The position numbers and the translations under genes are program-made. A stretch of DNA of 64,000 nucleotides, from the NCBI GenBank assembly GCA_029233965.1, contig JARGOP010000002.1:1-64000 (forward strand). The letters are read 5' to 3'. Positions within the stretch are counted from its first letter, which is position 1; each line of letters begins with the position of its first letter. This stretch comes from Verrucomicrobiales bacterium. Lineage in GTDB: Bacteria; Verrucomicrobiota; Verrucomicrobiia; Verrucomicrobiales; DEV007. Positions 6,320-27,999 of this stretch are shown one piece after another. A model generated the notes under the pieces. The model searched no databases. It saw nothing but the letters and a program-made list of their open reading frames with translations, and had not been told where the DNA came from.

Positions 6320-6410
6320 ACAAGGACGAGACCCGTCGATCAAGCTCCCATGACTCTGCTCACGCGAGAGAGGTTACCGAGGAAGTGATGCGGGAAACGA
6401 GGGAAAGACC

Positions 6411-7910
6411 TCAAGCTACCGGGCGGCGCCTCGGCCGCGCGAATACGGTCAGCCCGGCCAGGACAAGGCCGAGCAGACTGAAGGTGGCAGGCTCGGGGAG
6501 GGCTTCGTAGCGGAGGTAGATGCTTTCACCGGCTTGGAAAAGGGAAAAACTACCCGGGACACTGCTGGATGAATTGGAATCAAGGTAGTTGGAGGAAAGT
6601 GAAAGATTTCCGAACCCGGTGGTCGTGCCACTCGTCACACCAAAAATTTGCCACTCCCGGATGCCGTAGGCCCAGAATGGATCCGACCAATCGACGCTTG
6701 ATCCAGTAGTTGAATTGAAATCCAGTTCAATCGTGGTGGCGCCATTGAAGGTCAGTCCGCCATCGACCATGATACGGTCGAAATTGATACCGGGGCCTGA
6801 CTCCGTGTTATTGACCAGTTCCCATTCCACTGTGCTGCCGCCTTCGTAGGTGAGTCCGCTTTCGAAATACTGAATGCCCGGGCTATTACCCGGAGCGTGA
6901 ATACCCTTGATCGTAGTGGCTCCGCCGACGGTCCCCGAGCCGCCCAGCGTCGCGCCACTCTCCACATCGACAATTCCTCCAGCCCCTGAGTAGTCCCCGT
7001 TGATCAGCAGCGTACCGCCGATGGCGAGAGTAGCGCCAACATAGGTACCAGTGCCGGAAAGGGTCATCGTCCCGAGGCCGGATTTCGTGATCCCCCCGTC
7101 CGATCCCCCCGAAATGTTCCCACTGACCGTCAAGGCGCCGCCACTACCCACGGTGAATACGCTTCGTAAAATCTCGTCTTCCGAGATGGTTACCGATCCC
7201 GAAAGCGTGGCCGTGTGGCCGATCCCTACCTCTACGGCTTTCGATTTGTCGTCGTTGGCGAACGATACGGAGTTGGCTAGAGTGACGCCGTCTCCGAGTT
7301 TGAGAATAGCTGCCTCTCCTTCCAAAAGGACCGTAGAGCTGCCTCCCAAGGCATCGTTGTGATTCGCCACCACCGTTACGCCCGTGAGGATTTCGTGAGT
7401 CGTTGGGTCAAAGTTCGTATTCGCTCCGCCGAGCGTCAGCGTATGCTGACTGCCACCGCCCTCTGTGTTTTGGAACCCGTTCAGGCCGCCAGATAGGATG
7501 AGGGTCGAATTGATGGTGGCATCGCTTTTCAGCTGGATCGCGTTGGTGGCTCCCCCTGTTGCCGCAAGGGTGATCGTTCCTCCGGTGAGAGTGTAGCTTC
7601 CTGAAACCGCATCAAAACGAATCTCGGAGCCGGCCCCCGTGCCTACTGTCACGGTGTCGACCGTAACCGTGCCTGCCGTTCCATTGGCGCCCCCGAAAAT
7701 CGCGTTTTGCCCATTGGTCCAAACGACGTTGTTGACCCCGCCATCCGACGTCCAATCAGATATGGCGGTGCTCCAGTCGCCGTCGCCGTTGTCGACCTGG
7801 CTATTTCCGCTGGTCGCGTCAAAAGTCAGTTGTGCCATCGCACTATTGCTGATCACGACGAGGCCTGCCACGAGCGCAAGGCGAGTTGTCAAGGGATGGT
7901 CGAGAAACAT
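6411..7910 (-). CDS. PEP-CTERM protein with autotransporter-associated beta-strand repeat
   Basis: The product is 499 residues from the ATG at 7910. An upstream ATG at 7955 would add 15 Pro-rich residues before the signal peptide and is less likely. The signal peptide is MFLDHPLTTRLALVAGLVVI, ending near NSAMAQ. The body is Gly-, Ser- and Thr-rich beta sequence, with GGITKSGLGTMTLSGTGTYV followed by GGTLLINGDYSG, which resembles the PATR repeat of autotransporter-type passenger domains. The end is a textbook PEP-CTERM tail: LPEPATF, a hydrophobic stretch (SLLGLVLAGLTVFA) and RPRRR. This fits a surface protein processed by the exosortase encoded at 2899-3837. A strong terminator lies downstream. 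Function beyond a beta-helical surface protein cannot be stated. Confidence 0.93.
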   Translation of the reverse strand: MFLDHPLTTRLALVAGLVVISNSAMAQLTFDATSGNSQVDNGDGDWSTAISDWTSDGGVNNVVWTNGQNAIFGGANGTAGTVTVDTVTVGTGAGSEIRFDAVSGSYTLTGGTITLAATGGATNAIQLKSDATINSTLILSGGLNGFQNTEGGGSQHTLTLGGANTNFDPTTHEILTGVTVVANHNDALGGSSTVLLEGEAAILKLGDGVTLANSVSFANDDKSKAVEVGIGHTATLSGSVTISEDEILRSVFTVGSGGALTVSGNISGGSDGGITKSGLGTMTLSGTGTYVGATLAIGGTLLINGDYSGAGGIVDVESGATLGGSGTVGGATTIKGIHAPGNSPGIQYFESGLTYEGGSTVEWELVNNTESGPGINFDRIMVDGGLTFNGATTIELDFNSTTGSSVDWSDPFWAYGIREWQIFGVTSGTTTGFGNLSLSSNYLDSNSSSSVPGSFSLFQAGESIYLRYEALPEPATFSLLGLVLAGLTVFARPRRRPVA

Positions 7911-8471
7911 TTTAAGATGGGGAGGGGGAGGCTCTCTTCCAGATTCGCACAGCAAACTGAGTGGAAAACAGGTATAATGCTACCTCAAAGTTTGGCAAAG
8001 TGCAATCTTTGAACGTAAACAACGTAAAAGCCGTGTACCCCTCCGAGGGCTGCGTCACCAAGAGTGTAACCCACACCGGGACCGGACTGGAAGTGACAGG
8101 AATTCGCTATTTCAAGAAGTTCTTATCGGTGCTGGCGGGATTGAGGGACGTGCTACAAGATGTCGATTAAGCTCGCCTGAATTGAGATGACCGGTGTTAT
8201 CTCCCTCGTGAGAGATCGTATACAATCCTCCCGCGCATCCAGTGGGTAGACAGAAGATTGTTATGTTTCATTATCCTGATGAGGTCCCCCAAATCCCCGG
8301 GATCGAAGGGTTTAATGAAGAATCAATCATATCGATGTTGAGTAAATATTTATCGATTGGTCAGGTGGTTAATTCGAATCCAGAATGGGAAATCGGATCG
8401 CTTCGTTCTTTCAGGAGAATGAAATGAAGGGAGCAAGAAAACGATCTGGTTAAGAGAAAACGGAACCGCCT
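7911..8471. other. Intergenic stretch, divergent promoters expected
   Basis: This 560-bp stretch separates a minus-strand gene from a plus-strand gene. Apart from a weak 54-codon frame (listed separately) I see no convincing gene. Base composition becomes clearly AT-richer from about 8240 to 8470 than in the flanking genes, which fits regulatory or horizontally acquired DNA. No clear promoter boxes could be fixed by eye. Confidence 0.5.
8263..8427 (+). CDS. Possible small hypothetical protein
   Basis: A 54-codon frame starts at ATG 8263 (MFHYPDEVPQIPGIEGFNEE) and ends 44 bp before the FGE-fold gene. An in-frame GTG at 8242 would extend it by 7 residues. The composition is balanced, with no membrane segment and no recognisable domain. 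Local AT content is higher than in neighbouring genes. It may be a short leader-type gene or chance. I do not recognise it. Confidence 0.25.
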   Translation: MFHYPDEVPQIPGIEGFNEESIISMLSKYLSIGQVVNSNPEWEIGSLRSFRRMK

Positions 8472-10817
8472 ATGAAGGAAAGAAAATCATTGCTGACTCA
8501 GAGCATTCCCTGCCCCAAATGTGGTCACCGGGAATACCAGAACGGAGCCAATGAAGGACAAACGGTGACATGTTCTCAATGCCAATCCTCAATTCCAATT
8601 CATCCGGAACCAGGAAACGGCAAAACCCCGAGCCCTGCGACTCGATCGTCGTTTATTGCCCCCGGAATTGTATGTTTGATCGCCGGCGTTCTTTCGGTCG
8701 TCGTCGGTGTGATCTTTCTTTTTCTGGTCGCATCGGGAGGATTCGGTTTGTTCCTCACTCCGTTGTTTGTCGGCTTCTTCAAACTTCTATTCTTCGTCCT
8801 TCCCGTTTTTTTGTTGATCGCGTCTGGGATTCCAGCTCTGATTGCTTTCGCACGGAGTGAGCCCCGCAAAGTCAGCGCATTGATTGTGCCGATCATCTCG
8901 ATCGTTTGGATCAACTTCCTCGTTAGTGTTGGAGATAGTGCATCGCCGCCAGGGAAAAAAAGTGGAGGTGAAAAGGTATCAATCGCTGAGGGAATTGAAT
9001 TGGGATTCGAGAAGAAACACTTTGGCCCCTTTGGTCTTGAGTTCCACAATCGTCCTTACCTCCGATTCCACACCAAGAAGGTGCCACTTCGATGGCTCTC
9101 ACTTCCGGAGAACATGGAGCTCTGGAAAGACTACCAGGTGAAGTTTTATGAATCCGAAGAGCACGGCGACGGTAAGGTATTGGTCGCTTCGAGCGCAGAT
9201 TTCAGTGAAGAGGAGTACTTTGAGTTTTTCAAGTTGCTCCAGCTTCATCGCGACGAAGTCACTGATGCAATCGACAACCTGAAAACCTCAGTGCCTAATG
9301 TGCCTCAGAGTGACGTGGCTCCTTTTCGGGATCATGTTGGAATCGTCCTCGGAGAAAAGAGGCGTTTTCATTCCGATCCTCCCGGATACCTGTTTGAGGT
9401 CAGTATGGATGGAAATCTCAGGGCCGAAGTGTGGACCTCGGGGGGTGGCGGTAAAGTCACCGGCATTGGAGGCGGCGGGTTCCCGGGGCATTTAGTCGTG
9501 GAGGATGGTGAACTGGTTCTGTTGATGTTGAAGTCCGATGCCCCATCGAAGAAGGGGAGAGATATGGAGTTTTACCGAAATTTGATTCGCTCAGATGCGG
9601 CCCCTAACGAACTGTCTGCGGATTGGAATGGGCCGGAAGCTGTCCGCCTCGATGAGTTTGCCGAAGTGCGGGAGATCAGCCTGAGAGAGTCCCTCATGCT
9701 TTACGAATGGGAGCTTTCTACCTGGGGGAGTCGCACACTTCGATTCGATCGATCAGGGGGGGTATCTTCAAACGGAGAGCTCTGGGGACGATGGTCGATC
9801 CCTGAAGGTGAACTGCTCATGCTCGAGCCCGGGGGGACAGCGCCGGTTCGATTTGACGAAGAAGTCAATCCAACTCACCTGGCCGGTTGGGGCAGGTATG
9901 CTCGTGTTCGGTTGCTGCGGGGCTCGAATCTGAAATTTCTGCAGAGCAGAGAAAAAAGTGGAGAAAATCATCGGCAACAGCAGCTCGCTGCGGGGCAGTT
10001 GCCTCCTGAGCCGAAAGAATCGACTTCGAGTTTCCCTCAGTCCGGGAAGCCTTTTGAAAATGCATTGAAGATGAAGTTTGTTCCTGTTCCAAAGACACAG
10101 GAGTCTGATTCGGCGATTCTTTGTGCGGAAACTGAAACCACTCGCGGAGAGTTTCAGAAATTCCTCGATACGGCGGCCTTTGAGTTCGAAAAACTGGGAG
10201 AGGGGCGGGCGCGAACGCATCCCATTATTGGAGTCACCTGGGATGACGCCAACGCCTTTTGCGAGTGGCTGACGGAAGTGGGAATTCTTTCTGGAAAACT
10301 GGCTCCGGGGCAATGCTATCGATTGCCTACTGATCACGAGTGGAGTCGTGCTGCGGGAATTGCCAACCGCGAGGCCCCGGACCTTTCTCCCAAGCAGAAA
10401 TCCAGGAAATTGCCGGGGGTTTTTCTGTGGGGAGACAGCTGGCCACCGCCGCAGGGCGCGGGTAATTTTTCCGGAGAAGAGCTCTCCGTAGTCCCGGGAA
10501 AGAAGGTGATCGAAGGTTTTAATGATGGATTTCGAGTCACATCGCCAGTTCGGAGCTTTGAGCCGAACGGGCTCGGCATCTACGATCTGGCAGGAAATCT
10601 TTGGGAATGGTGTCAGGATGACTTTGATATAGGTGGAACCCGAAAGGTCCTGCGGGGAGGGTCTTATATCCAGGCCCGTCAACTCGAGGCGGCCACACGC
10701 AAACCCAGTGAACCAGATCGGAAGATTGATCATTACGGATTTCGTTGTGTGCTTGATCTGGGGGAGGCCCGGGGAGACTTTGACGAGCCAATCCCGGCTC
10801 CAGTTGAGGAGAACTAA
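8472..10817 (+). CDS. Zinc-ribbon membrane protein with C-terminal FGE-sulfatase (SUMF1) fold
   Basis: The 781-residue product starts with a zinc ribbon (Cys14, Cys17, Cys34, Cys37). Several hydrophobic segments follow between about residues 63 and 160. Next comes a long soluble region with GGGGKVTGIGGGGF and a WGRWSIPEGELLMLEP element. The C-terminal FGE/SUMF1-type domain (about residues 530-770) has VTWDDANAFCEWL, YRLPTDHEWSRAAG, GNLWEWCQD, VLRGGSY and YGFRC. Genuine formylglycine-generating enzymes carry two catalytic cysteines just after RGGS. Here the stretch reads RGGSYIQARQLEAATR with no Cys, so this domain is probably a non-catalytic C-type-lectin-like fold. The protein may be a surface or regulatory adaptor. 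Its substrate is unknown. Confidence 0.8.
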   Translation: MKERKSLLTQSIPCPKCGHREYQNGANEGQTVTCSQCQSSIPIHPEPGNGKTPSPATRSSFIAPGIVCLIAGVLSVVVGVIFLFLVASGGFGLFLTPLFVGFFKLLFFVLPVFLLIASGIPALIAFARSEPRKVSALIVPIISIVWINFLVSVGDSASPPGKKSGGEKVSIAEGIELGFEKKHFGPFGLEFHNRPYLRFHTKKVPLRWLSLPENMELWKDYQVKFYESEEHGDGKVLVASSADFSEEEYFEFFKLLQLHRDEVTDAIDNLKTSVPNVPQSDVAPFRDHVGIVLGEKRRFHSDPPGYLFEVSMDGNLRAEVWTSGGGGKVTGIGGGGFPGHLVVEDGELVLLMLKSDAPSKKGRDMEFYRNLIRSDAAPNELSADWNGPEAVRLDEFAEVREISLRESLMLYEWELSTWGSRTLRFDRSGGVSSNGELWGRWSIPEGELLMLEPGGTAPVRFDEEVNPTHLAGWGRYARVRLLRGSNLKFLQSREKSGENHRQQQLAAGQLPPEPKESTSSFPQSGKPFENALKMKFVPVPKTQESDSAILCAETETTRGEFQKFLDTAAFEFEKLGEGRARTHPIIGVTWDDANAFCEWLTEVGILSGKLAPGQCYRLPTDHEWSRAAGIANREAPDLSPKQKSRKLPGVFLWGDSWPPPQGAGNFSGEELSVVPGKKVIEGFNDGFRVTSPVRSFEPNGLGIYDLAGNLWEWCQDDFDIGGTRKVLRGGSYIQARQLEAATRKPSEPDRKIDHYGFRCVLDLGEARGDFDEPIPAPVEEN

Positions 10818-15119: not shown

Positions 15120-15572
15120 ATGAGGGTGCTGCTGCAACGAGTGAGTGACGCTTCCGTGACGATCGGAGGCATTGAGAAGAGTCGGATTGGGTCAGGGATG
15201 CTGCTTCTTCTGGGGATCGAGCAGGAGGACAATGAGGACGATATTGACTGGCTGGTGCGGAAACTGATTACGTTGCGGATCTTTGAAGATGACGAAGGGA
15301 AGATGAACCGTTCGATCATGGATACGGACGGAGAGGCGCTTGTGGTCAGTCAGTTCACCCTGCATGCCCGGGTCAAAAAAGGGACCCGCCCCAGCTTCGA
15401 GCGGGCGGCCCGGCCTGAGGTGGCCATTCCGCTCTACGGGAAGTTTGTCGCGACGCTTGAGAGTGAACTCGGGAAAACGGTCCCGACGGGAGAGTTCGGA
15501 GCGATGATGGAGGTTTCTCTCACCAACGATGGTCCTGTCACGATCTGGATCGATTCGCGTAACCGGGAGTAA
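15120..15572 (+). CDS. dtd: D-aminoacyl-tRNA deacylase
   Basis: This 150-residue protein has the normal Dtd length. It hydrolyses D-amino acids (and Gly from tRNA-Ala) mischarged on tRNA. The family motifs SQFT (residues 77-80) and GPVT (138-141) are present and form the active site at the dimer interface. A purine-rich GAGAAGAG stretch lies about 10 nt before the ATG. The 3' end overlaps the convergent rhombosortase gene by 35 bp. Confidence 0.97.
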   Translation: MRVLLQRVSDASVTIGGIEKSRIGSGMLLLLGIEQEDNEDDIDWLVRKLITLRIFEDDEGKMNRSIMDTDGEALVVSQFTLHARVKKGTRPSFERAARPEVAIPLYGKFVATLESELGKTVPTGEFGAMMEVSLTNDGPVTIWIDSRNRE

Positions 15573-16194
15573 GGCCCTTCCGCGGAGTTCCGAAGAATTT
15601 CACAAGAGTCCAGAGCTTCGAGCTTCCCGCGAGCAGTCCGCACACCATCCCGCTGAGGTGAGCGGAAGTGGCGGGAATGAAATCATTTTCAGCCCGCTCG
15701 ACGAACAAGGTGTCGCCGGTGAGCAGTTCGAAGGTAGTTTTCCCGAGAAAGCCGGCGAGTCCGATCATCGCGAGGTAGCGAACCGGGGGGCCCTGCCGCC
15801 ACAAGCCGGCGACGATGAGACCAAAGAGAGCGGAATCGATTCCGGACAAGCCGCGATAGCTTTCGAATTGCGGGTGAAACAGCATGATCTCCAGCGAAAT
15901 GACGAGGGCGGAAAGGACGAGGCAGATCAGGAGCCTCCCCGGCACGAGGCGGATTGCGGCGATTCCCAACCCGAGGAAAGCGACGACGTCCCAGAGAAGA
16001 TGATCCCACGACCAGTGGGTGAGATGGCCGGTGAAAGCGGTCGCCACCTTCAGAGGAAAGGTGGCGGAGCGCCTCCATTGAAGAGCCTCCCCGAGGTCGG
16101 GGAGGCTCTGAATGACAACGGAAAGGGAGGCCAGCACGAACAGGGTCACCCCTTCGAAAACGGGTCGCCTCCAGATCGGAAGTTGAGTGTTCAT
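15538..16194 (-). CDS. Rhombosortase (rhomboid-family sorting protease)
   Basis: The 218-residue protein has about six membrane segments. FTGHLTHWSWDHLLWDVVAF (residues 54-73) matches the rhomboid membrane-helix 2 region. The catalytic serine is Ser117 in YRGLSGID, and the catalytic histidine is His179 in TSAHLSGM. This compact layout fits the rhombosortase branch, which processes GlyGly-CTERM proteins, better than general rhomboids. The next gene on the same strand, 24 bp upstream of it, encodes a VIT/VWA protein with exactly such a Gly-rich hydrophobic Arg tail, so the two are probably a dedicated pair. The last 11 codons overlap dtd on the other strand. Confidence 0.88.
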   Translation of the reverse strand: MNTQLPIWRRPVFEGVTLFVLASLSVVIQSLPDLGEALQWRRSATFPLKVATAFTGHLTHWSWDHLLWDVVAFLGLGIAAIRLVPGRLLICLVLSALVISLEIMLFHPQFESYRGLSGIDSALFGLIVAGLWRQGPPVRYLAMIGLAGFLGKTTFELLTGDTLFVERAENDFIPATSAHLSGMVCGLLAGSSKLWTLVKFFGTPRKGLTPGYANRSRS

Positions 16195-16218: not shown

Positions 16219-18246
16219 TCAGGCTTCGCGTCGGATTCCGAGCTTCGCGGCGAGAGCGGAGAAGAGCAGCATGAGGATGACCGCGAGCGGGGGGAGTGCT
16301 CCACCGCCCCCTCCCCCGCCACCACTGGTGATGCGTGGAGCGTTGCCGGGCGTGAAGGGCTTCGCCGTATCGACGCGATAGTTTGTGGGATGCGGGGCGC
16401 TTGCCCGGGTTTGCTGAGCGAGTCGCTCGGTGGCGACCCGGTCGCGATTGTTTCGGGCAATGCCGTGGTGCTCAAAGCGTTCATCGGCGAGCACGAGCAT
16501 CGAGGTTTCGTCGGTGACGAGCTGATACTGCAATCCGAGATCGCGGATCGCGTCATCCGATTCGATGCCCGGGATCTCGCCGCGATTGGCGCGCAGCTCG
16601 ATCTGCTCGATTTGGTCGAGGGCCCAGAGTCGTTCGAGTTCAGGATTGTCGGTGTCGAGGTCAGGGAAGGTGAAGGAGGTCCGGTAGGTTTTGTCCTCTC
16701 CAGTGAGACGTGCCCTGAGCGTGAGCTCGGCTTCGCCTCCTTTTTCATACTGACCGAAAAGAACGAGCTGTTCCCCGCGATAGATCTTCCCGGGGAGGTC
16801 GCCGGTGACATGGAAAGTCTTCACCCCTTTGATGCGGAATTCGGCGTCATGGAGCGATTCGTGCAGGATCCTGCTCTTGGCCTGGAGGATTTGGCCCATA
16901 ATGTCGTCCGAGTTTGAAACGCCGGCGTAGAAGCCGCCGCTGCCGTCGCAGATCGTGCGCATGAGCGGCCAGTTTGCGCTGTTGCCGAGAAGGAATCCGA
17001 AGATCCTGACGTCGTGTGTTTTCGTGAGTTCGTGGAATTTGACCGGATCGACGATGCCCTGATTGGTGACGCCGTCGGTGACGAGGACAACACTCGTGGC
17101 ACGGTCATCGTCGAGGTCGTTCATCGCCATGCTGAGGCCTTCGTAGATGTTGGTGCCTCCGCTCGTCCCCAATTTCTGAATGTTTGTCAGGGTCTTTTCA
17201 ACGTTCTCCGGGGTGGCCGTGATCCAGCCGCGGGTGAGGTCGTTGGCCCGGTCCGAGAACGTGATGACGCGGAAGCGATCCTGTGGCGACATCTCTCCGA
17301 TGACGCGGGCGACTCCGTCGGTGAGGGTGTGTAGTTTGGACGACATGCTGCCGGAGGTGTCGAGGACGTAGACATAGTCCGCGCCGTTTGTGATCGGTTT
17401 CAGATCGATGCCGGGAGTGACGACCATCATGAAAGTGCCGTTCCCTTTTTCGTCATCGCGGAAGGGAATGACTTCGACGCGGCCGGGGAGATCCTGCGCG
17501 AGGCGGTAGTAGACAACGAGGTCGCGATTGAGAGCCTGGCCGGGTTTTTCGAGAAGGATCCGGTAGTGGCCCTCGTCGAGTTTTTCGGTCGTGGTTTCGT
17601 TTTCGAATCCGGGGAGGCGAACCTGCTCAACCGGCCAGGCCGATTTCAGGATGACCTCGGCGGAGAAGTTGCCTTCGACAACGTCGTTGACCGGATTCCA
17701 GAAGCTGGCGGCGGCCACGTCGTCGGTGCCACCCTCTTCGAGCGGGTAGAGATAGCGACCGATCCCCGTGTCGATCGGGACGGGCTGGTAGTAGACGATC
17801 CGAATGCGGGTTTCGTCGTTGGCTTTGACGGGATGGACCTTGAACTCGAAGGCCTGAATCCCCTCTTTCGTGGCGAGACCGGTGTCGTTGCCGGCCTGCT
17901 TTTCGCTCTCGTAGATGGTCTTCGCCTTTTCCCGTTCGACGACTTCGCCGTGAATGTCGCGTTCGCCCATCGTGAGCGTGACTTCGGAAAGGCTCGCGCT
18001 CTGAGGCAACGGAAAACGGTAGACCGCCTCGAGATCGACGGAGTTGGGGTTGAAGAAAGTCTGCGTGACCTCCGTTTGCGCGAAGCCATTGTTGATCGTG
18101 ACTTTCACGTCATGATCGCGAATCGCGATCGGGGCGTGCGGGGAGTCCTTTGGAGTGAGCGTGCCGGCTGAGAAGCCTGCTGCCGTGCTCAAAAGAAGGC
18201 CCAGGGCCGCCGTAATTTTCGTGATGAAGCTAGGTAATGTTTTCAT
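16219..18246 (-). CDS. VIT and VWA domain protein with GlyGly-CTERM-like tail
   Basis: From the ATG at 18246 the product is 675 residues, starting with a signal peptide (MKTLPSFITKITAALGLLLS). A start 13 codons upstream is possible but would bury the signal. The VIT domain (about residues 30-160) has VTINNGFAQTEVTQTFFNP and YRFPLPQSASLSEVTL. The VWA domain has the MIDAS motif DTSGSMS, later TSGGTNIYEGL and VVLVTDGVTNQG. The end is ITSGGGGGGGGALPPL, a hydrophobic helix (AVILMLLFSALAA) and KLGIRREA, that is, a GlyGly-CTERM sorting tail. The adjacent rhombosortase is its likely processing enzyme. A role in metal-dependent adhesion or protein binding at the surface is inferred from VWA biology. 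Confidence 0.88.
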   Translation of the reverse strand: MKTLPSFITKITAALGLLLSTAAGFSAGTLTPKDSPHAPIAIRDHDVKVTINNGFAQTEVTQTFFNPNSVDLEAVYRFPLPQSASLSEVTLTMGERDIHGEVVEREKAKTIYESEKQAGNDTGLATKEGIQAFEFKVHPVKANDETRIRIVYYQPVPIDTGIGRYLYPLEEGGTDDVAAASFWNPVNDVVEGNFSAEVILKSAWPVEQVRLPGFENETTTEKLDEGHYRILLEKPGQALNRDLVVYYRLAQDLPGRVEVIPFRDDEKGNGTFMMVVTPGIDLKPITNGADYVYVLDTSGSMSSKLHTLTDGVARVIGEMSPQDRFRVITFSDRANDLTRGWITATPENVEKTLTNIQKLGTSGGTNIYEGLSMAMNDLDDDRATSVVLVTDGVTNQGIVDPVKFHELTKTHDVRIFGFLLGNSANWPLMRTICDGSGGFYAGVSNSDDIMGQILQAKSRILHESLHDAEFRIKGVKTFHVTGDLPGKIYRGEQLVLFGQYEKGGEAELTLRARLTGEDKTYRTSFTFPDLDTDNPELERLWALDQIEQIELRANRGEIPGIESDDAIRDLGLQYQLVTDETSMLVLADERFEHHGIARNNRDRVATERLAQQTRASAPHPTNYRVDTAKPFTPGNAPRITSGGGGGGGGALPPLAVILMLLFSALAAKLGIRREA

Positions 18247-18347: not shown

Positions 18348-19961
18348 TTATTCTCCTTCGGCTTCCGGAGGAGGTGGAAGGAGATGGACCTTTTTTCCAA
18401 ACCTGGTGGTCGTCTCCTCGACTGCTACCAGTCCATTGTCTGCCGAAACGAATGAAAAATGATGAACGCGGCCTTTGAAGGGCGGCAGTTCCTCGTTTGC
18501 CATCGTTTTTTCCGCATTACCGAAAACCACCGGCGTGCCTTGAACGATTTCGAGGCCACCTTCGGGAACTTCGTCTTCGATTCGTGCGCGTCCTACCGTT
18601 GTTTCCCGTCGCCCGTCAGTTCGAAGAATGATCATAAGGTTGGTCAGCACCCCAGGTTCCACTTTTCCGATTACTGATGTTGTGGCGGCTTTCTCCCGTG
18701 GAGCCCAATCCATCAGCAACTCACCCTCTTTCAAATACACCGAGAAACCGCCAAGATTATCATATCGACAGTGGATGAGGTGCGAGGTGGTTTCCTCAGT
18801 CTCGAATTGCATCCGAATTTGCATGAAGAGTTTTCTCAGATCCGCTGAACCCACCGAGACCTGTCCCCCGGTTCCATCAAAAACAAAGCTCTCTGCCTCT
18901 TTCGCTACTCCTCCGGACATGGTGATGGTCTCTTTATCCTCTCTCCCTCCGATCAGGAAGACTCTGTCCGGCAGCTCTTCGACAAGCAAAAAATCCCGAT
19001 CCTCCTGTGCAGGAAGCGTTGCAACCGTTGCTGATCCGCTGATGACCGGTCCGCTCATTTTGTCTGCCGGCTCTTTTGGTTTGGTCATCTCACTCTCAGC
19101 TTCGCCAAGCGCCTTGATCTCTCCATCGGCGAGGGTCGCGAGTTGTTCCGGTGCTCCTTCCCAGAGTTTCCCCTTTCCATACAGATCACGATAGAGTTTC
19201 ACCTGGGCCTGAAGTTCGGCGGTTTTTTCAGGGTCTCCCAGTTCGAAGACGAGTTGCGAAGATCGGCGCAGGGCTTCCCGCGTGAGCAGGATTGAGCCTC
19301 CGAAATTGAGGACATAGGCGCCGGCATACTCGGTGACGGCCTCGTCGCTTTTGCCAAGGCCTTCGAGGGCTCGTGCTTTCAGGAAGTAGGTTTCAGCGGT
19401 TGGCGCCTCGACCGTTTCGAGTGCAGTGATCGCGCCTTCCCAGTTTTCGTCGGCGATTGCAGTCCAGGCAGCAGTTTCGGGTTCGACTCGTTTCAATTCC
19501 GGCGGGAGGTGAAAGAACTCCTCCCGAACAATCTTTGCCTGGGCGGCGACTTTCGAAGCGTCGAGCTGGAGCCGATAGCACTGGAGCATGCGCTCTTTCG
19601 CGAGGGAGACAAAGTTTCCGGGAAAGGGAAAGTAGTTACTGACCGGATCCGCAATCACTTCGCCGTAGAGTTTCAGCGCTTCCTCGAGACGACCGGACTC
19701 GCGGGCGTCTTCCGCCTTTCGCCAGGTCTCCGTGGTCGGGAAGGTAACGGAGTCGACTTCGCTCCTCAGGGTGGAATTCACCTCACTCGCAGAGGAGCTC
19801 TGTTTCCAGAGGAGCCTCGCCCGGTCAACGCCCTCCAGTTCGATGGTTGTGGTCTTGCCGTCTTTGAAGTAAATAGTCGCGAGGTCCGCTCTCACCATCG
19901 AGGACGGGGCGGCGGCGATCACCACGAGAATGGGAAAGAAGAATGGGATACGGCAGCTCAT
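18348..19961 (-). CDS. Exported TPR protein with LamG-like C-terminal domain
   Basis: The 537-residue product has a signal peptide (MSCRIPFFFPILVVIAAAPS), then a short domain beginning ATIYFKDGKTTTIELEGVD, which is seen at the start of many PVC exported proteins. A TPR-like helical part follows (about residues 80-260, for example EDARESGRLEEALKLYGEV). A beta-rich domain from about residue 335 has SFVFDGTGGQVSVG and GRVHHFSFVS, resembling a LamG/concanavalin-like fold. The gene overlaps the 966-residue TPR gene by 4 bp and is last in the ExbBD-VWA operon. Function is unknown; a periplasmic partner of that complex is likely from the coupling. Confidence 0.75.
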   Translation of the reverse strand: MSCRIPFFFPILVVIAAAPSSMVRADLATIYFKDGKTTTIELEGVDRARLLWKQSSSASEVNSTLRSEVDSVTFPTTETWRKAEDARESGRLEEALKLYGEVIADPVSNYFPFPGNFVSLAKERMLQCYRLQLDASKVAAQAKIVREEFFHLPPELKRVEPETAAWTAIADENWEGAITALETVEAPTAETYFLKARALEGLGKSDEAVTEYAGAYVLNFGGSILLTREALRRSSQLVFELGDPEKTAELQAQVKLYRDLYGKGKLWEGAPEQLATLADGEIKALGEAESEMTKPKEPADKMSGPVISGSATVATLPAQEDRDFLLVEELPDRVFLIGGREDKETITMSGGVAKEAESFVFDGTGGQVSVGSADLRKLFMQIRMQFETEETTSHLIHCRYDNLGGFSVYLKEGELLMDWAPREKAATTSVIGKVEPGVLTNLMIILRTDGRRETTVGRARIEDEVPEGGLEIVQGTPVVFGNAEKTMANEELPPFKGRVHHFSFVSADNGLVAVEETTTRFGKKVHLLPPPPEAEGE

Positions 19962-22858
19962 TTCGCGTTCTCCTGTGATTTTACTTTCGCCGCATACTCG
20001 ACCCGCCAGGTGCCGAAAACTTCTTTGGCCTTTTCGACGCCGGGATGATCAAGGTGGCCCATTCGCTTGAGCATGTCCTGCAGGATCTGAAGGGCTTTGA
20101 GATCTTCTCCGCTGCCCTTGGTGATCGCAGCCGTTCTCAGGTAGGCACGCGTCGACCAGTCGAGATGCCCCGGAAAATTGGCGTAGACACTCACATAGAT
20201 TTTCAGGGCGTCCGCGAGGTTACCCTGTTGCTCGTAGCAGGAGGCGAGACTGTAATTCGCTTCGGGACGGCTCAGGCTCCAGCTTCGGTTCTCGAGATAC
20301 TTTTCCCAGTGAGGTATCGCCTCCTCGTATTTCTTCTCCTGCATGCGAATGCGGGCCATGCCGAGGACGGCTTTTTCCCGGAGTTCCTCGTTCGGAATTG
20401 CGGAAACAACTTCGGCGAATTTTTGCATGGCCTCTTCCCGAACCGCGGGATCGTCTGATTGGGCCTGAATTTGGGCGACATCGACGAGGCAGTAATCGTA
20501 GTTGGGCGTGCCGGGGCGGTTCTCGAGGATGTATTCGTAAAGCCCCCTGGCCTCTTCGGGGCGCTTGCGGACTTCAGTGATCCAGCGAGCCAGTCGCACC
20601 GCCGGGTAGTTGCTGTGTTCTTCAGATTTGAACCCGGCTTCGAGCTGGTAGTAGATCTTGTTCACAGTGTCCGCGTCCGCTTCAGCTTGCTCCATCGAGT
20701 CGGCGAGCGCGATCATGGCCCACCCCCGGAGCGCGGGTGTCGTTCCGCGCTCGAACTGAATTTCGCGAAGCTGCTCCTGGAGAAAGTCGTTTTCATAATT
20801 CGACTCCAGAAAATCGACGTAGCTACCGAACATCTCGCTTAACGTCGCCGATTCAGGATCGGTTCTATTTTCCCAGACGCGGTCACGCAGGAGTTGCCGT
20901 CCTTCGTCGGCGCGTCCCTGTTCCACCAGCATGGGGAGAGCGGCGACGAGGAAATCATTGCGATAGTCGGAGTCAGCGTAGTCGTCCTGAAATTGCTGAT
21001 AGTGCTGCGCCGCAGCGTCCCATTGTTCATTGTCGACCGCAAGCATCAGGAGCTGCCAGAGCGAATAGGCGGTGGTGTCGGATTGTTGGAAGCGGATTCC
21101 TCCGTCGCGGCCGTTGGTATAACAGAACTCGATTTCCTCCATCGGAGCCTCGAGGGTGCTGGCGATATCTCCTTTTAAGTTCCAGGCCGGTGGAGCGGTT
21201 TCGTGATTCGGGAATTCCTCGTGGATTCGATTCACTTTCGCGACAGCGTCTTCAAGGCGGTCGATCATGAATTCACTGAGGGCGGCCTGATAAAGCACCG
21301 GAGGAGTCAGCGGCGATTTCGGGTAGGTGGAAAGAAACTCGCTGAAGACTCCGGCGGCTTCCTCCCATTTGCGCAGTTGTACTTTGGTCAGGCCGAGGAA
21401 GAAGTGAACCATTTCCCGCCGTTCCCCTTCGGTGTAGGTCTGGAAGTAGGCCGAAAGTTCCGTTTCCGCGGTTTCCATTTCGCCGAGGTGAAACGCTGAG
21501 GCGCCGTAGACAAAATCGGGAACGTCCCGGATCGCCTCTCCGGCCGTCATGTCCTGCCTCACTTCCCCCGAAACACGGAAGGCTTCGTCGTATTCCTCAC
21601 GGAGGAAAAGCAGTTCGACAAGGACGCGGGCAACCGCGGGTTTCAGATCATGTTCAGGGAACTCGTCGAGGAACTGTTTACCGTATTGATAGGCTTCCTT
21701 CCATTTTTCGATCTGCGCGGCGGAAACCACGGCATTGTGCAGGAAGACCGGGCGCTCCGGGTGACTTTTCCCGGCCTGGTCAGAGAGTTGGGAAAAGGCG
21801 ACATAACTGCCCGGAAAGTTTTGCAGCATGAAGTGGGAGGAACCGACTCCGTTGAGCGTCTGAATGTATCCCTGCTCGAGGTCATTGAGCTGCTTGCTCA
21901 GTTCGTTCAGCACTTCGGCCTTCTTGGCTCCCAACTCCTCCGGGACGGGGCGGTTTTTGAGCGATTCGAATCGTTGCTCGTATTCGGGAAGAAGGAGGCG
22001 GGGATTCACAATCCGCTCATACCAGGCGAGGGCGCGCACCGGATCCTGCTTTTGAAGGGCTAGTTGGGCGAGGTATTGGAAGCGATCATTGCGGTCATAT
22101 CGTTCGATGAAGGGATCGTTATCCACCACCTCGCTGTAGGTCTGGAGAAATTCGAGGACTTCGGGAAACTCAACCTCAGGGGTCCAGTCCTCGGCGATGA
22201 TCATGTAGATCGTTTCGCGGAGTCCGTCGCTCAGATTGGTGTTTCCCAGTGGACGCGACATGAACTCGTAGCCCTTCTTAAGGTCGCCCGCTTTCAGGTA
22301 GCAGCGGCCAAGGTTTACGCCGACATGGATGAGATTCACTTTTGAGTCGTCTTTTCCCACGACGAGGACTTTTTCAAAGAGGTCTTTCGCGGCCACGTAC
22401 TGCTCAGTTTTCATTTCCGCATTCGCCCACTGGACGAGAGCAGCGTTGCGGAAAAGGTTGGGCAGCAGCCCTTTAATTTCGTCATCAGTTCCCGTTGAGA
22501 GGATCTCGTTGGAGTAGGTCTCATAACAGGTCTTGAAGGCTTCGATCGATTCCTTCGCCTGATCGTTGCCTAGAAGGGCGAGTCCTTTGAGAAAGTAGAA
22601 GTGGCCGAAAACGGGCCCGAAACGTTTCATGGCACCATTGCCGTGTTCGGCGATGACCCCATTGGTCAGTTTCAGTGCTTCCCCCCAGTTCCGGAGTTGA
22701 ATCGCGCTGACCGATTTGTTGTAGGCAATGACAGGGTCGGTGAGGTCTTCTTCCTGAGTTTGGCCCGGGGTTCCCCCGTGAAGCAGGCATGAAAGGACGA
22801 GCGCGGCCTGACACAGTACGCTGGAATTTGATCGGATAAACTGTCGGAGCTGGCTCAA
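19958..22858 (-). CDS. Large exported TPR protein of the ExbBD-VWA operon
   Basis: The 966-residue product has a signal peptide ending near GGTPGQTQ. TPR repeats run through nearly the whole chain, for example AYQYGKQFLDEFPEHDLKPA, EAAGVFSEFLSTYPKSPLTP, AIPHWEKYLENRSW and ADALKIYVSVYANFPG. The spacing resembles the YbgF/BamD-type periplasmic TPR solenoids that accompany Tol and Bam systems. It starts 8 bp after the VWA gene and its stop overlaps the next gene (ATGA). A role as periplasmic scaffold for the ExbB/ExbD motor is inference from context. Confidence 0.8.
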   Translation of the reverse strand: MSQLRQFIRSNSSVLCQAALVLSCLLHGGTPGQTQEEDLTDPVIAYNKSVSAIQLRNWGEALKLTNGVIAEHGNGAMKRFGPVFGHFYFLKGLALLGNDQAKESIEAFKTCYETYSNEILSTGTDDEIKGLLPNLFRNAALVQWANAEMKTEQYVAAKDLFEKVLVVGKDDSKVNLIHVGVNLGRCYLKAGDLKKGYEFMSRPLGNTNLSDGLRETIYMIIAEDWTPEVEFPEVLEFLQTYSEVVDNDPFIERYDRNDRFQYLAQLALQKQDPVRALAWYERIVNPRLLLPEYEQRFESLKNRPVPEELGAKKAEVLNELSKQLNDLEQGYIQTLNGVGSSHFMLQNFPGSYVAFSQLSDQAGKSHPERPVFLHNAVVSAAQIEKWKEAYQYGKQFLDEFPEHDLKPAVARVLVELLFLREEYDEAFRVSGEVRQDMTAGEAIRDVPDFVYGASAFHLGEMETAETELSAYFQTYTEGERREMVHFFLGLTKVQLRKWEEAAGVFSEFLSTYPKSPLTPPVLYQAALSEFMIDRLEDAVAKVNRIHEEFPNHETAPPAWNLKGDIASTLEAPMEEIEFCYTNGRDGGIRFQQSDTTAYSLWQLLMLAVDNEQWDAAAQHYQQFQDDYADSDYRNDFLVAALPMLVEQGRADEGRQLLRDRVWENRTDPESATLSEMFGSYVDFLESNYENDFLQEQLREIQFERGTTPALRGWAMIALADSMEQAEADADTVNKIYYQLEAGFKSEEHSNYPAVRLARWITEVRKRPEEARGLYEYILENRPGTPNYDYCLVDVAQIQAQSDDPAVREEAMQKFAEVVSAIPNEELREKAVLGMARIRMQEKKYEEAIPHWEKYLENRSWSLSRPEANYSLASCYEQQGNLADALKIYVSVYANFPGHLDWSTRAYLRTAAITKGSGEDLKALQILQDMLKRMGHLDHPGVEKAKEVFGTWRVEYAAKVKSQENAK

Positions 22859-22866
22859 GGATTTCG

Positions 22867-24444
22867 TTAGATTCGTCCTTTGTATTTGTCGGGATTCCTG
22901 ATGTAGTCGAAGCCGTCGATAGGCTTGCCCTTTCTGTCGACAATGATGTAGGTGCCGCCTGTTTTCTTTGCGATTTCAGCGAACTCTTTGCTGCCTGCCG
23001 TGGTCTGCATCGCGACCATGTTGATGGGCGGTTTGCCGTATTTTTCGTTGGTCTTGAGAATCGGGGCAGGTTTGTTCCCCCCGGTTCCGTCGGCCATGAA
23101 AAAGATCACGTCCGGTGCCGGTTCCATGCGGTGGGCAATGTCGAGGGCGAGGCCCCAGTCGGTGCCACCAAAGAGCTTGTCTTTCTCGACGCGTTCCATC
23201 GTCGCCTTGACGTTTGCTGAGGTGGACTCGAGCCATTCTCCTTTTGGAAGCCGGCTGTCAGCACCGTCAAAATCGTAGTTTGAGAAGCCGCCAACCCTCT
23301 TGAAAAGATATTGGCCTCCTCCGCCTTTGGCGAGATTATGCGGCCCCTTGTTCTCGATCGACCAGCCTTTGGATGCATAGTATCCGCCGCCCGCAAAGAG
23401 CAGGACCTGGTATTGCACGCCCTTGAGACCCTTGAGAGCTTTCTCTAGCTCGTTATTTCTCAGTTCGACCTGGTTGGGCTTCATTGACCCGGAGTGGTCC
23501 AGCACGAACAGGAATCGTTTCCCCGTCGAGGTGCCCCCGAAGAAGGAAGCGCCGCTCCCGAGACCGTCTCCACTGCCTCCAAACCCACCTCCGCCAAAGT
23601 CGGCGTCCCCGATCCCGAGCGGTCCTTTGCTGGTTCGGGTCACATTCGGAAGAGAAATCTTAGCCATCGCGTTGGCCCGCATGAGTTGTGCGAGGGGCGC
23701 CGCCGCGGCGGAAGAGGCCGAGGTCTTTTTCGTTTGTTTAACAACATTCTTTTTCTGCATTTCCTGCTTCTTCGCAGGAGGCCCAATCACGGCGGCCACG
23801 ATTTCCGGTTCATCGCGATTGGGCGGAAGGATCACCACAATCGTCGCAATGATGGCAATGAGAAGGTGAACGCCGATCGCGACAAGAATCGCGGTGGCTT
23901 TTGCGCCGCGAGGTTTTCCGGAATTGGGTTTTGCAGTCCAGCTGTCCTCCCCGTCCCCCGCGGTTTCCCTGACGAGGTCCGGCGGGGGCGGTGCGATCGG
24001 CGGAATCGACAGCTCACTGGATTCAGTCGCCGTCTCTTCAGTCGGGCCGACTTCTCCGGAATGGACAGTAGCATCTGCTTCAGGACCGGTTAGAACGGGG
24101 GCGTTGGCGGAATTGAGCGCAAGGGCAACGGTGCGATGCTGTTCCGCCTTCTCAAGATCTCCTTTCTGAAGAAGAAGGTCGGCAAGGAGAGTGTGGCCGT
24201 AACCGCTTGCGGGGTTTGCGCGGAGATAGGCTTCAATGAGCGGGATGGATCCGAATCCCCCGAGCTCGACGAGACGGTGCAGATGGGCTTCGGTTTCCGG
24301 AGGACAGGGTGCTGCGTTGACCAGCTCAGCGGCGCCCCCAAGCGCGGCGCGCTCGAGCATTTTCTCGGCCACAAGAATGCGGAGAGACCAGTCCTGCGGG
24401 TGGGCTTCCAGTGCCTGTGTCAGGGAGGCTTCCAGTTCACTCAT
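22867..24444 (-). CDS. Membrane-anchored VWA protein with N-terminal TPR-like domain
   Basis: The 525-residue product has three parts. The N-terminus (about 1-110) is TPR-like (LTQALEAHPQDWSLRILVAE). One membrane helix lies near residues 190-210 (ILVAIGVHLLIAIIATIVVIL), followed by basic and Gln-rich linker sequence. The C-terminal VWA domain starts near residue 315 with FLFVLDHSGSMK, a complete DxSxS MIDAS motif. The helix is followed by a Pro- and Ala-rich stretch reminiscent of TonB-type proteins. It lies between exbD (6 bp) and the large TPR gene (8 bp). A TonB-like energy-coupled partner of ExbBD is plausible but not shown by the sequence. Confidence 0.8.
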   Translation of the reverse strand: MSELEASLTQALEAHPQDWSLRILVAEKMLERAALGGAAELVNAAPCPPETEAHLHRLVELGGFGSIPLIEAYLRANPASGYGHTLLADLLLQKGDLEKAEQHRTVALALNSANAPVLTGPEADATVHSGEVGPTEETATESSELSIPPIAPPPPDLVRETAGDGEDSWTAKPNSGKPRGAKATAILVAIGVHLLIAIIATIVVILPPNRDEPEIVAAVIGPPAKKQEMQKKNVVKQTKKTSASSAAAAPLAQLMRANAMAKISLPNVTRTSKGPLGIGDADFGGGGFGGSGDGLGSGASFFGGTSTGKRFLFVLDHSGSMKPNQVELRNNELEKALKGLKGVQYQVLLFAGGGYYASKGWSIENKGPHNLAKGGGGQYLFKRVGGFSNYDFDGADSRLPKGEWLESTSANVKATMERVEKDKLFGGTDWGLALDIAHRMEPAPDVIFFMADGTGGNKPAPILKTNEKYGKPPINMVAMQTTAGSKEFAEIAKKTGGTYIIVDRKGKPIDGFDYIRNPDKYKGRI

Positions 24445-24450
24445 AATACA

Positions 24451-24888
24451 TCAATTGGCTAGGCTCACATTCTTGATCTCTGCTTTGGCGCAGACGTTCA
24501 GGACATCGATAAAGCGCTGACCAACCGCTTCCTGATCGCAGTCGATGATGACCTGGGTTTCCGTGTTCGCGACGATGGCGGAGGCCGAGTAGCGGCTGAG
24601 GCGCTCCGTCAGGTTCGGCAAATCCCGGTCATTGGGATCCGAATCGGAGACCTCTTCATTGACCATGATGACCCCGGCAGCGTCAATTTTCACCAGCATC
24701 TGGTCGATCTTCACCTCGCGACTGTCCTCTTTCGTCACCCCGGGAAGAACGAGACTGAGATCGGCTTCCGATTTCTGGAGGGTCGTGGTGACGAGGAAGT
24801 AGATGAGAAGCAGGAAAGCGACATCGATGAGCGGACTGATGTCGAGTTCGGGTTCCTGCTCGTTGCTGAATGGATTGCTGTCCGCCAT
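24451..24888 (-). CDS. exbD: ExbD/TolR-type protein (second copy)
   Basis: The 145-residue protein has a short cytoplasmic N-terminus and one membrane helix, DISPLIDVAFLLLIYFLVTT, whose Asp (residue 25) is the proton-carrying residue of ExbD/TolR/MotB-type stators. A periplasmic domain follows. It starts 1 bp after the stop of the other exbD and probably forms a mixed complex with it and ExbB. Confidence 0.92.
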   Translation of the reverse strand: MADSNPFSNEQEPELDISPLIDVAFLLLIYFLVTTTLQKSEADLSLVLPGVTKEDSREVKIDQMLVKIDAAGVIMVNEEVSDSDPNDRDLPNLTERLSRYSASAIVANTETQVIIDCDQEAVGQRFIDVLNVCAKAEIKNVSLAN

Positions 24889-24889
24889 A

Positions 24890-25312
24890 TCAATTCGAGG
24901 TTTGGTAGGTGGAGAAAATCACCGTGGGGACTCCCGCCTCGGCGGAGGCCCGGCTCACCGTTTGAATGTGCTTGTAGGGCACGGCTTTGTGAGCTCGTAG
25001 ATGGAGGCGCGTGTTCGGGTTCGTGGCCCGCGCCGTCGAGATGCGCTGCCGGAGATCCGGGATACTGAGGGTGTTGCCTTCGACGTCTTTGACGGTGCCA
25101 TCGACGTAGACATTAATGACGATGCGACCCTCCACCAGCGTCGGAACTTTGGAGTCACTCGCCACCGGTATAATAATGTTAGGGTCTTTTGGAAAGGTGA
25201 TAATGTTCGCCGCGACCATGAAGAAAATGAGAAGGAGAAAGACAAGGTCGATCATGGGCGAGAGATCCGCCTTGAGCCCCGGCCCACCAAATAGATCGTT
25301 TTCCTTTGCCAT
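24890..25312 (-). CDS. exbD: ExbD/TolR-type protein (first copy)
   Basis: From the ATG at 25312 (MAKENDLFGGPGLKADLSPM) the product is 140 residues. The membrane helix MIDLVFLLLIFFMVAANI holds the conserved Asp. The periplasmic part has GRIVINVYVDGTV and RLHLRAHKAVPY, as in ExbD/TolR. An upstream in-frame ATG would run into the exbB gene and add Arg- and Pro-rich sequence, so it is rejected. The gene lies 23 bp after exbB. Paired, non-identical ExbD copies are common in PVC and Bacteroidota operons. Confidence 0.93.
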   Translation of the reverse strand: MAKENDLFGGPGLKADLSPMIDLVFLLLIFFMVAANIITFPKDPNIIIPVASDSKVPTLVEGRIVINVYVDGTVKDVEGNTLSIPDLRQRISTARATNPNTRLHLRAHKAVPYKHIQTVSRASAEAGVPTVIFSTYQTSN

Positions 25313-25335
25313 TTCCCTGTTTCCGTTTTCGCGGC

Positions 25336-26160
25336 TCAGCCTTCCCCGTGCGACGCAACCACGGTGCGGCGCAGAGTCGCAATGAGCGATTCCGCGCTCT
25401 CTTCCGATTCTGCGACAAGTTGCTGGAGGCGGTCGCGGAAAATGAAGTAACAAAAGATCGCGGGAAGTGCGACGACGAGACCGGTCGCCGTCGTGATGAG
25501 CGCCTCGGAGATGTTTCCGGCAAACGCGGACGGGTCACCGGTGCCGCCCTGGCTCAGTTTGGCGAAGGCACCGATCATTCCCGAAACGGTTCCGAGCAAA
25601 CCCATCATCGGGGCGGCCTGGGCGATGATGGAGAAGTAGTTGATGGTGCGAACACGGCCCCGGTTGAATTTCCGCGAGGCAGCCGCCATGACCTCCTCGA
25701 GCTTCTCGGTGTCGAGGACGCCGTAGCCGCGATCAACGATGTAGAGCATTCCGGCTTCCATCACGCTGCTCAGGCAGGACGAAGTGGATTGAACTTTCTG
25801 GAGCGCGGATTCGAAGTCCGTTCCTTCCATGTCCTGATTCAGGGCCGCTTCGAGATCGGCAGGGTAGAACTGCTTCCGCTGCAGGTCGATGAGGCAGTAG
25901 ATAAGGAGTCCGATGACGGCAAAAGAGAAGGAGCCGAGGACCCACATGGACCAGCCTCCCGCTTTGATCATTTCAAGGAGATTGACTTCCCCGGAAGAGG
26001 CGGTTCCCGCAGTTTCCTCTGCAGGGTTTGGAATGGTGACTTCAACAGCAGCTTCTCCGGGTATGCTGAGATCAAATTCGTCCTGAGCAGAAGCGGAGTT
26101 AAGGAGGAGAAGGTATCCGGCGACGAGAACAAATGAGAGGTGGTAAACCGATCGATTCAT
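25336..26160 (-). CDS. exbB: ExbB/TolQ-type proton channel with signal peptide
   Basis: From the ATG at 26160 the product is 274 residues. It has a signal peptide (MNRSVYHLSFVLVAGYLLLL) and a short periplasmic stretch, then a first channel helix (GGWSMWVLGSFSFAVIGLLI). The family core follows: YFSIIAQAAPMMGLLGTVSGMIGAF and EALITTATGLVVALPAIFCY. An added N-terminal signal peptide is typical of the MotA/TolQ/ExbB proteins of PVC and Bacteroidota. It is the first gene of the six-gene operon that ends at 18348. The operon promoter should lie in the 120 bp up to the divergent gene at 26281. Confidence 0.94.
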   Translation of the reverse strand: MNRSVYHLSFVLVAGYLLLLNSASAQDEFDLSIPGEAAVEVTIPNPAEETAGTASSGEVNLLEMIKAGGWSMWVLGSFSFAVIGLLIYCLIDLQRKQFYPADLEAALNQDMEGTDFESALQKVQSTSSCLSSVMEAGMLYIVDRGYGVLDTEKLEEVMAAASRKFNRGRVRTINYFSIIAQAAPMMGLLGTVSGMIGAFAKLSQGGTGDPSAFAGNISEALITTATGLVVALPAIFCYFIFRDRLQQLVAESEESAESLIATLRRTVVASHGEG

Positions 26161-26280
26161 GAGGGTGAAGGTTTTCCGCAGGGGCTTTCTGGGGGGTAAC
26201 AGGAAAGCGGATTTTGCGACGGAATGGCAATCTAATTCGATGCAAATTGTTGTGCCCACTATCTGCCCCGGGATCCGGAG

Positions 26281-27072: not shown

Positions 27073-27999
27073 ATGGAAAAATCCTCACCTTTCTCCCGTC
27101 GTTCCTTTGTCTCCGGATCCGCTGCGACCGTGGCTGCAGTCGCCGCTTCGATGAGTCACCGTTTTGCCCTTGCTGAAGAAGCCGCCGAAAAGGCAGGTGT
27201 GGGCGGAAAGATCAATCACTCCGCCTGCAAATGGTGCTACAAAGACATCTCGCTCGATGATCTCTGCACGGCCGGTAAAGAGTTTGGCCTGCAGTCGGTT
27301 GAGCTGCTCATGCCGGAGGATTTTGCGACGCTGAAAAAGCATGAGATGCACTGCGCCATGGTCAGCTTCCCCTCTGCTGAAGTGGAAATCGGCGGGAAGA
27401 AAAAGAAGATCGGAACGATTCCCAACGCCTTCAACCGTGTCGAGCATCACGACACCCTCGTGGAAATTTACGAGCCGCATCTCAAGGCCAGCGCCGACGC
27501 CGGATTCAAGCAGGTCATCTGTTTTTCCGGAAACCGCGATGGCATGGACGATGAGGAAGGTCTCAAGAACTGTGCGATCGGATTGAAGCGTCTCATGCCT
27601 CTCTGCGAGAAACTCGGCGTGACCCTTTCCATGGAGCTGCTCAATTCCAAAGTGAACCACAAGGACTACATGTGCGATCTCTCGAGCTGGGGTGCCGCGC
27701 TGTGTGAGGAAGTTGGATCGGAGCACTTCAAGCTTCTCTACGACATCTATCACATGCAGATCATGGAGGGTGACATCATTGCCACGATCAAAGACCGTCA
27801 TCAGTATTTCAGCCACTACCACACCGGCGGTGTTCCCGGCCGTGCCGAGATCGATGAAACCCAGGAGCTTTACTACCCGGCGATCATGAAGGCCATCGTC
27901 GAGACCGGCTATGTCGGGTATGTCGCGCAGGAGTTCATTCCCAAGCGCGAGGACAAGATTGCCTCTCTGAAACAGGCGGTCGGGATTTGTACGGTGTAA
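27073..27999 (+). CDS. Tat-exported hydroxypyruvate-isomerase-like TIM-barrel protein
   Basis: The 308-residue product starts with a twin-Arg signal (FSRRSFVSGSAATVAAVAAS). The mature part fits the Hyi/xylose-isomerase-like TIM barrel, with the likely metal and sugar ligands in VTLSMELLNSKVNH, LLYDIYHMQIMEGD, HYHTGGVPGR and GYVGYVAQEF. Cytosolic Hyi interconverts hydroxypyruvate and tartronate semialdehyde. PVC genomes often carry Tat-exported relatives whose substrates are unknown, so isomerase activity on a sugar-like compound in the periplasm is inferred only. A palindromic repeat with a T-run follows and may end transcription. Confidence 0.88.
   Translation: MEKSSPFSRRSFVSGSAATVAAVAASMSHRFALAEEAAEKAGVGGKINHSACKWCYKDISLDDLCTAGKEFGLQSVELLMPEDFATLKKHEMHCAMVSFPSAEVEIGGKKKKIGTIPNAFNRVEHHDTLVEIYEPHLKASADAGFKQVICFSGNRDGMDDEEGLKNCAIGLKRLMPLCEKLGVTLSMELLNSKVNHKDYMCDLSSWGAALCEEVGSEHFKLLYDIYHMQIMEGDIIATIKDRHQYFSHYHTGGVPGRAEIDETQELYYPAIMKAIVETGYVGYVAQEFIPKREDKIASLKQAVGICTV

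Follow-up and report, generated by a model that had tools for sequence, protein, structure and literature searches.

Positions 18348 to 26160 of a 64,000-nucleotide stretch of DNA from a Verrucomicrobiales bacterium (hereafter the window) carry a six-gene operon that corresponds to the MUL1 gene set of Akkermansia with a VWA gene inserted. This kinship to MUL1, as it can be read from sequence comparison, is what is new here, and we see about an even chance that the six genes specify a transenvelope machine of MUL1 type for glycan import that is equipped with its own VWA force transducer. Such a machine would probably draw large sugar polymers into the cell envelope.

The window lies on contig C8 of a genome of 4.83 Mb in 151 contigs, the named neighbours of which are Verrucomicrobiales MAGs. 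The operon has the order ExbB-ExbD-ExbD-VWA-TPR-last protein and consists of the following genes:

25336..26160, minus strand: ExbB/TolQ-family proton channel subunit with an N-terminal signal-like segment (PF01618, 94.7 bits; phmmer; ExbB tree)
24890..25312, minus strand: ExbD/TolR-family subunit 1 (PF02472, 66.8 bits; sequence)
24451..24888, minus strand: ExbD/TolR-family subunit 2 (PF02472, 77.7 bits; alignment A2)
22867..24444, minus strand: putative VWA force transducer, P0004 (AlphaFold2 model, Foldseek, conservation of the histidine, alignments)
19958..22858, minus strand: periplasmic TPR scaffold of 966 residues (Pfam/NCBIfam; hhalign)
18348..19961, minus strand: Mul1B-related periplasmic protein, here called the last protein (NF052542 below cut-off; hhalign; predicted model and VIA-align)

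A preliminary description of this DNA had reported six tightly packed minus-strand genes, and this is borne out: all six reading frames are present and open, with successive spacings from ExbB to the last protein of +23, +1, +6, +8, and -4 bases. We took the ATG at 26160 as the start of ExbB, the ORF of which opens earlier, at a GTG at 26259. Pfam and NCBIfam searches of the operon proteins returned no TolB, Pal, or TolA, none of the operon's genes encodes an outer-membrane protein or a carbohydrate enzyme, and a sigma-70 scan found no promoter-like site. The same description had noted the lack of TonB and of a TonB-dependent receptor, which is correct for the operon and incorrect for the genome, where a classical Ton system is located on contig C131 (TonB at 27145, ExbB at 28770, and a TonB-dependent receptor plug at 32882). 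Directly downstream of the operon lie genes for a VIT-VWA protein whose tail is GlyGly-CTERM-like (16219-18246) and, after it, a rhombosortase (15538-16194; TIGR03902, 94.9 bits against a cut-off of 84); among the loci that we read, none has a relative of the VIT-VWA protein next to the operon.

Judged from its residues, the motor looks functional, because ExbB matches solved ExbB/TolQ chains (phmmer E 1.9e-11) and keeps both conserved pore threonine regions (GLLGTVSG and TTATGLVVALPA), while both ExbDs keep the aspartate of the membrane helix (SPMIDLVFLLLIFF in ExbD1 and SPLIDVAFLLLIYF in ExbD2, the latter Asp invariant across the 9 proteins of alignment A2). The VWA protein has a predicted TolA/TonB topology, with a cytoplasmic part, one helix, a linker, and a periplasmic head. 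In its AlphaFold2 model (mean pLDDT 77.8), residues 1-113 are predicted helical repeats, forming a cytoplasmic TPR domain that is followed by a disordered stretch; a single membrane helix (181-205) carries His193, which sits where the motor-binding His of TonB/TolA lies; and a disordered linker (210-295) leads to the VWA domain (298-525). The DxSxS of this domain is located at 316-320, Thr428 and Asp452 are further metal-site residues, and all of these positions (D316, S318, S320, T428, and D452) are invariant or nearly so in an alignment of 23 homologues. The Pfam model VWA_2 scored 21.4 bits on the protein, under its cut-off of 27, and the best Foldseek matches of the model are VWA domains, with BatB in the list. 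A TonB domain in the linker of the protein had been named as a refutation, and none was found in the protein with Pfam and NCBIfam. The proposal that a one-helix VWA protein occupies the place of TonB or TolA is supported, with the correction that the protein has the additional cytoplasmic TPR domain. The membrane His is found in 20 of the 21 VWA records linked to a motor and in 46 of 65 standalone proteins, counts that include a few duplicate records of one locus; in the motor-linked protein of L134, Met replaces it.

The two proteins that follow had both been described as periplasmic TPR proteins. This applies to the long TPR protein, which has a signal peptide and CpoB/YbgF-like repeats, whereas the last protein is more than a TPR protein: behind its signal peptide come a small beta domain, TPR-like helices, and a predicted C-terminal laminin-G/LNS-like domain (residues ∼337 to 505). 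The predicted model of this C terminus aligns with neurexin LNS at a VIA-align Z of 14.3, and LNS/laminin-G domains are the meaningful structural matches. Long clostridial toxin-complex chains, the top Foldseek matches of the last protein, were rejected as an artefact of the common jelly-roll fold, with an rmsd of 22-27 Å. In two relatives (L114 and L134), an F5/8C galactose-binding domain replaces the laminin-G-like domain (42.8 bits in L134 against a cut-off of 27.8). Such a swap of lectin-like domains at one position fits glycan capture; folds of the laminin-G type can have protein as well as glycan ligands.

A scan of 84,980 named genomes for relatives of the VWA protein yielded 37 loci, and the operon is found at 18 Verrucomicrobiales loci including the window, several of which end at contig ends. 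It is complete in the window and in seven others (L100, L105, L106, L112, L113, L114, and L134, of which L134 has a third ExbD gene), lacks a recognised last protein in three (L109, L110, and L121, of which L121 has two tandem VWA transducer genes at 6391-8633), and is interrupted by contig ends, with a consistent remainder, in six (L099, L101, L102, L103, L107, and L124). At one further locus (L111, the same locus as L078:3112-8828) the operon is broken: it has lost the TPR gene, and a RecQ-like gene of the other strand separates VWA from ExbD2. Conservation of the gene order had been proposed as a check and random assortment of the VWA and TPR genes as a refutation; we found a fixed order with close gene spacing across relatives from many assemblies and no such assortment within the operon. 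A chance arrangement is excluded, because the gene order recurs in relatives. The pairwise identities of ExbB, ExbD2, VWA, and TPR covary (Spearman 0.74-0.80), a pattern that shared descent alone could give, and in the neighbourhoods of relatives that we compared, no further gene generally accompanies the six. A VWA match at 1e-20 was present in only 17 of 337 genomes drawn from the phylum, and the operon is therefore accessory. One complete operon is carried by a MAG labelled Akkermansia muciniphila (L112); this label is probably wrong, because the Akkermansia genomes listed (g11) have no VWA match at 1e-20.

Outside these loci, the same genes occur as a five-gene core, ExbB-ExbD-ExbD-TPR(∼1000 aa)-Mul1B, that lacks the VWA gene. 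We found this core in the window's own genome (contig C54, L059), in other genomes of its family (L076, L093, L094, L096-L098, and L190), and in Akkermansia (L069-L071, including genome G057), and a search for the Mul1B family gave matches in 54 of 76 genomes of the order. The VWA-less operon of the window's genome is directly preceded by genes for an ABC ATPase and for a 312-aa protein that has no Pfam match (L059:3194-4871). The window TPR family aligns with the MUL1 TPR family over 908 columns (hhalign E 1e-112), and the family of the last protein aligns with Mul1B over 250 columns (hhalign E 4.5e-30). Against the NCBIfam family for Mul1B (NF052542), the last protein itself scored 41.9 bits (E 7.1e-11; cut-off 75), which makes it a relative outside the curated family. 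In an ExbB tree that took in four other motors of the window's genome (C131, C85, C117, and C75), the 16 ExbBs of VWA operons form one clade (98/96) and the 10 MUL1-type ExbBs a separate one (97/97); the two clades are adjacent, with a joint support of 91/85. The ExbBs of C131, C85, and C117 fall apart from both, and that of C75 is placed weakly beside the MUL1-type clade on a long branch.

Two of these other motors have neighbours of their own to report. In the C117 cluster (L065:6033-7922), the gene after ExbB and ExbD encodes a protein of 247 aa. Its membrane helix is of the classical S-x3-H kind, and it is likely an unrecognised TolA/TonB-type transducer, which shows the normal occupant of the position held by VWA in the window operon. 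The C75 cluster (L066:5234-10271), the third TPR-type motor cluster of the genome, has the order TPR-295 aa-ExbB-ExbD and ends at the contig end, and by eye its 295-aa protein resembles the Mul1B N terminus.

Gene order, adjacent ExbB clades, and homologous TPR and last proteins are thus shared with Akkermansia MUL1, which differs in having no VWA gene and a shorter Mul1B without the laminin-G-like extension. The core is ExbB-ExbD-ExbD-TPR-Mul1B and the VWA gene its variable part, because VWA proteins of the family also occur without an adjacent motor gene; since Akkermansia MUL1 is without a VWA gene, VWA is dispensable for a MUL1-type machine. The core genes of genome G057 are, going by their position, presumably Amuc_0543-0547. 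Davey 2023 is reportedly the source for the role of the MUL genes in mucin accumulation by A. muciniphila. PMC12418764 and PMC13174399, both citing it, state that the accumulation of mucin products in internal compartments depends on these genes, and PMC11790493 marks some A. muciniphila carbohydrate enzymes as Mul1A-associated. Amuc_0546 is named a biopolymer transporter in PMC11480725, and we infer that the long TPR protein is Mul1A. The full core is also present in three genomes from two non-Akkermansia genera of Akkermansia's family (L183-L185), which, if these genomes are aquatic, would run against the absence of MUL1 synteny from aquatic Akkermansiaceae stated in PMC13174399.

The preliminary description had called this type of machine poorly described, which is half right: a class of motor-coupled VWA transducers of the PVC group, with TPR genes, was published in 2025 (PMC12204202, Mol Biol Evol) as a computational class with no function assigned. 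Its genes are a TPR gene, often upstream of the motor, and one TolQ-like and two TolR-like genes beside VWA; in AF3 complexes the VWA-class helix docks where TonB would bind the motor, and many members have an S-H-L-S motif in the membrane helix. By architecture, the window operon belongs with this class, sharing the one-helix VWA protein with a disordered linker and a membrane His, the TolQ-like and two different TolR-like genes, and the TPR gene. It differs in that the TPR gene is downstream of VWA, in that the operon ends with a Mul1B-related protein bearing a lectin-like domain, in the extra cytoplasmic TPR domain, and in that only the His of S-H-L-S is kept (His193, with Ala189, Ala200, and Val204 replacing S, L, and S). 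Ser at -4 from the His is found in L135, in L132, and in standalone proteins (L080-L083). The published order, TPR-X-ExbB-ExbD-ExbD-VWA, is seen in L135 (Opitutae), which matches the window-family profiles for VWA (1e-19) and TPR (3e-10) and the MUL1-type TPR profile (2e-20). The TPR of the planctomycete L132 matches the window TPR weakly, and the third subunit of L066, L135, and L132 resembles Mul1B by eye. Among longer-known systems, TonB-ExbBD shares the ExbB/ExbD motor and a one-helix transducer with a membrane His, whereas in the window operon a VWA head replaces the C-terminal domain of TonB, there are two ExbDs, and a TonB-dependent receptor is lacking. Tol-Pal (TolQRA-CpoB) shares the motor, a single-helix transducer, and a TPR protein, whereas TolB, Pal, and a TolA domain are absent from the window operon. 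The cluster FSU_2397-2403 of Fibrobacter succinogenes, which is upregulated on cellulose, combines ExbB and two ExbDs with two TPR proteins and has a TonB-family transducer instead of VWA (PMC6851124), a literature parallel in gene content.

Glycan uptake of MUL1 type is more likely than the suggested envelope or adhesion machine, because three of the operon's proteins (ExbB, the long TPR, and the last protein) have homologues in the MUL1 core of Akkermansia. We find it unlikely that the operon encodes a Tol-like envelope-maintenance machine, in which motor and VWA protein would hold or remodel the outer membrane and the TPR protein would act as CpoB. The long TPR does score over the cut-off of the CpoB/YbgF model (TIGR02795, 98.9 versus 90.1 bits) and the NCBIfam TolQ/TolR models score the motor slightly better than the ExbB/ExbD models, but the TPR match is one of generic repeats, Pal, TolB, and TolA are lacking from the operon, the minority distribution in the phylum is unlike that of a housekeeping system, the C-terminal lectin-like domains would go unexplained, and the operon's kinship is to MUL1. 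More doubtful is an adhesion or gliding machine, a role suggested for the VWA class in PMC12204202, with VWA as an energised adhesin or a force relay to surface adhesins. The complete MIDAS-type residues of the VWA domain would suit this, as would laminin-G and F5/8C domains, which are common in adhesins; however, the VWA head is predicted to be periplasmic and tethered to the inner membrane, the TPR and last proteins have signal peptides and no recognised surface anchor, and gliding genes are absent from the operon and not common to its neighbourhoods. Least probable is that the VWA protein is a Bat-like assembly or chaperone factor merely travelling with motor genes, as its many standalone paralogues, its incomplete motif, and the BatB match might suggest, given that nearly all motor-linked members keep the membrane His, that the VWA position is fixed within one ExbB clade, that operon identities covary (for which shared descent could suffice), and that the AF3 predictions for the class place the helix at the TonB site (PMC12204202).

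Proton-driven MUL1-type glycan import is therefore the reading best supported by the mucin role of the MUL genes, the exchange of lectin-like domains, and the Fibrobacter parallel taken together. We hypothesize that proton flow through an ExbB pentamer and a pair of two different ExbDs would move the VWA protein, the membrane helix of which may dock on ExbB via His193, and that the long disordered linker would transmit this movement across the periplasm to a Mg-dependent VWA head. This head could grip and release a scaffold that the long TPR protein would form with the Mul1B-like protein, while the lectin-like C terminus of the latter would hold the glycan, so that a large polysaccharide would be pulled in and retained in the periplasm. 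Against this reading count the absence of VWA from Akkermansia MUL1, the retention of the His alone from S-H-L-S in the window protein, the close VWA paralogues that stand alone (19 of 65 without the His), the Met in L134, the lack of an outer-membrane protein or carbohydrate enzyme in the operon, and the fact that laminin-G-like folds are also protein-binding.

Standalone proteins, often several per genome, have the same TPR-helix-linker segment as the VWA protein of the window. Most of these are VWA-headed; in others, a PA14-like head (L075) or a squalene-cyclase-like toroid (L061, L085, and L088) replaces VWA, and the head of L090_5 looks toroid by alignment. Two Akkermansia proteins with a plug-like segment (L175 and L176) have heads that are PA14-like by eye and were rejected as MUL1 transducers, because they have no His. 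We tentatively suggest that Verrucomicrobiales possess interchangeable force arms, in which one TPR-His helix-linker module with VWA, PA14, or toroid heads is present in several copies per genome and driven by a few ExbBD motors, including those of MUL1 type, each head having its own cargo or partner.

The VWA class is without a reported phenotype, and MUL1 has a phenotype and, in its literature as represented in secondary sources, no description of a power source. The shared motor, scaffold, and gene order tie the two together, and both become testable, with the predictions that MUL1 is proton-driven and that VWA operons move large glycans. The core is also present in further genera of Akkermansiaceae and in further families of the order, which suggests that machines of MUL1 type were not invented for gut mucin, and the finding bears on the "selfish" uptake of polysaccharides by Verrucomicrobia.
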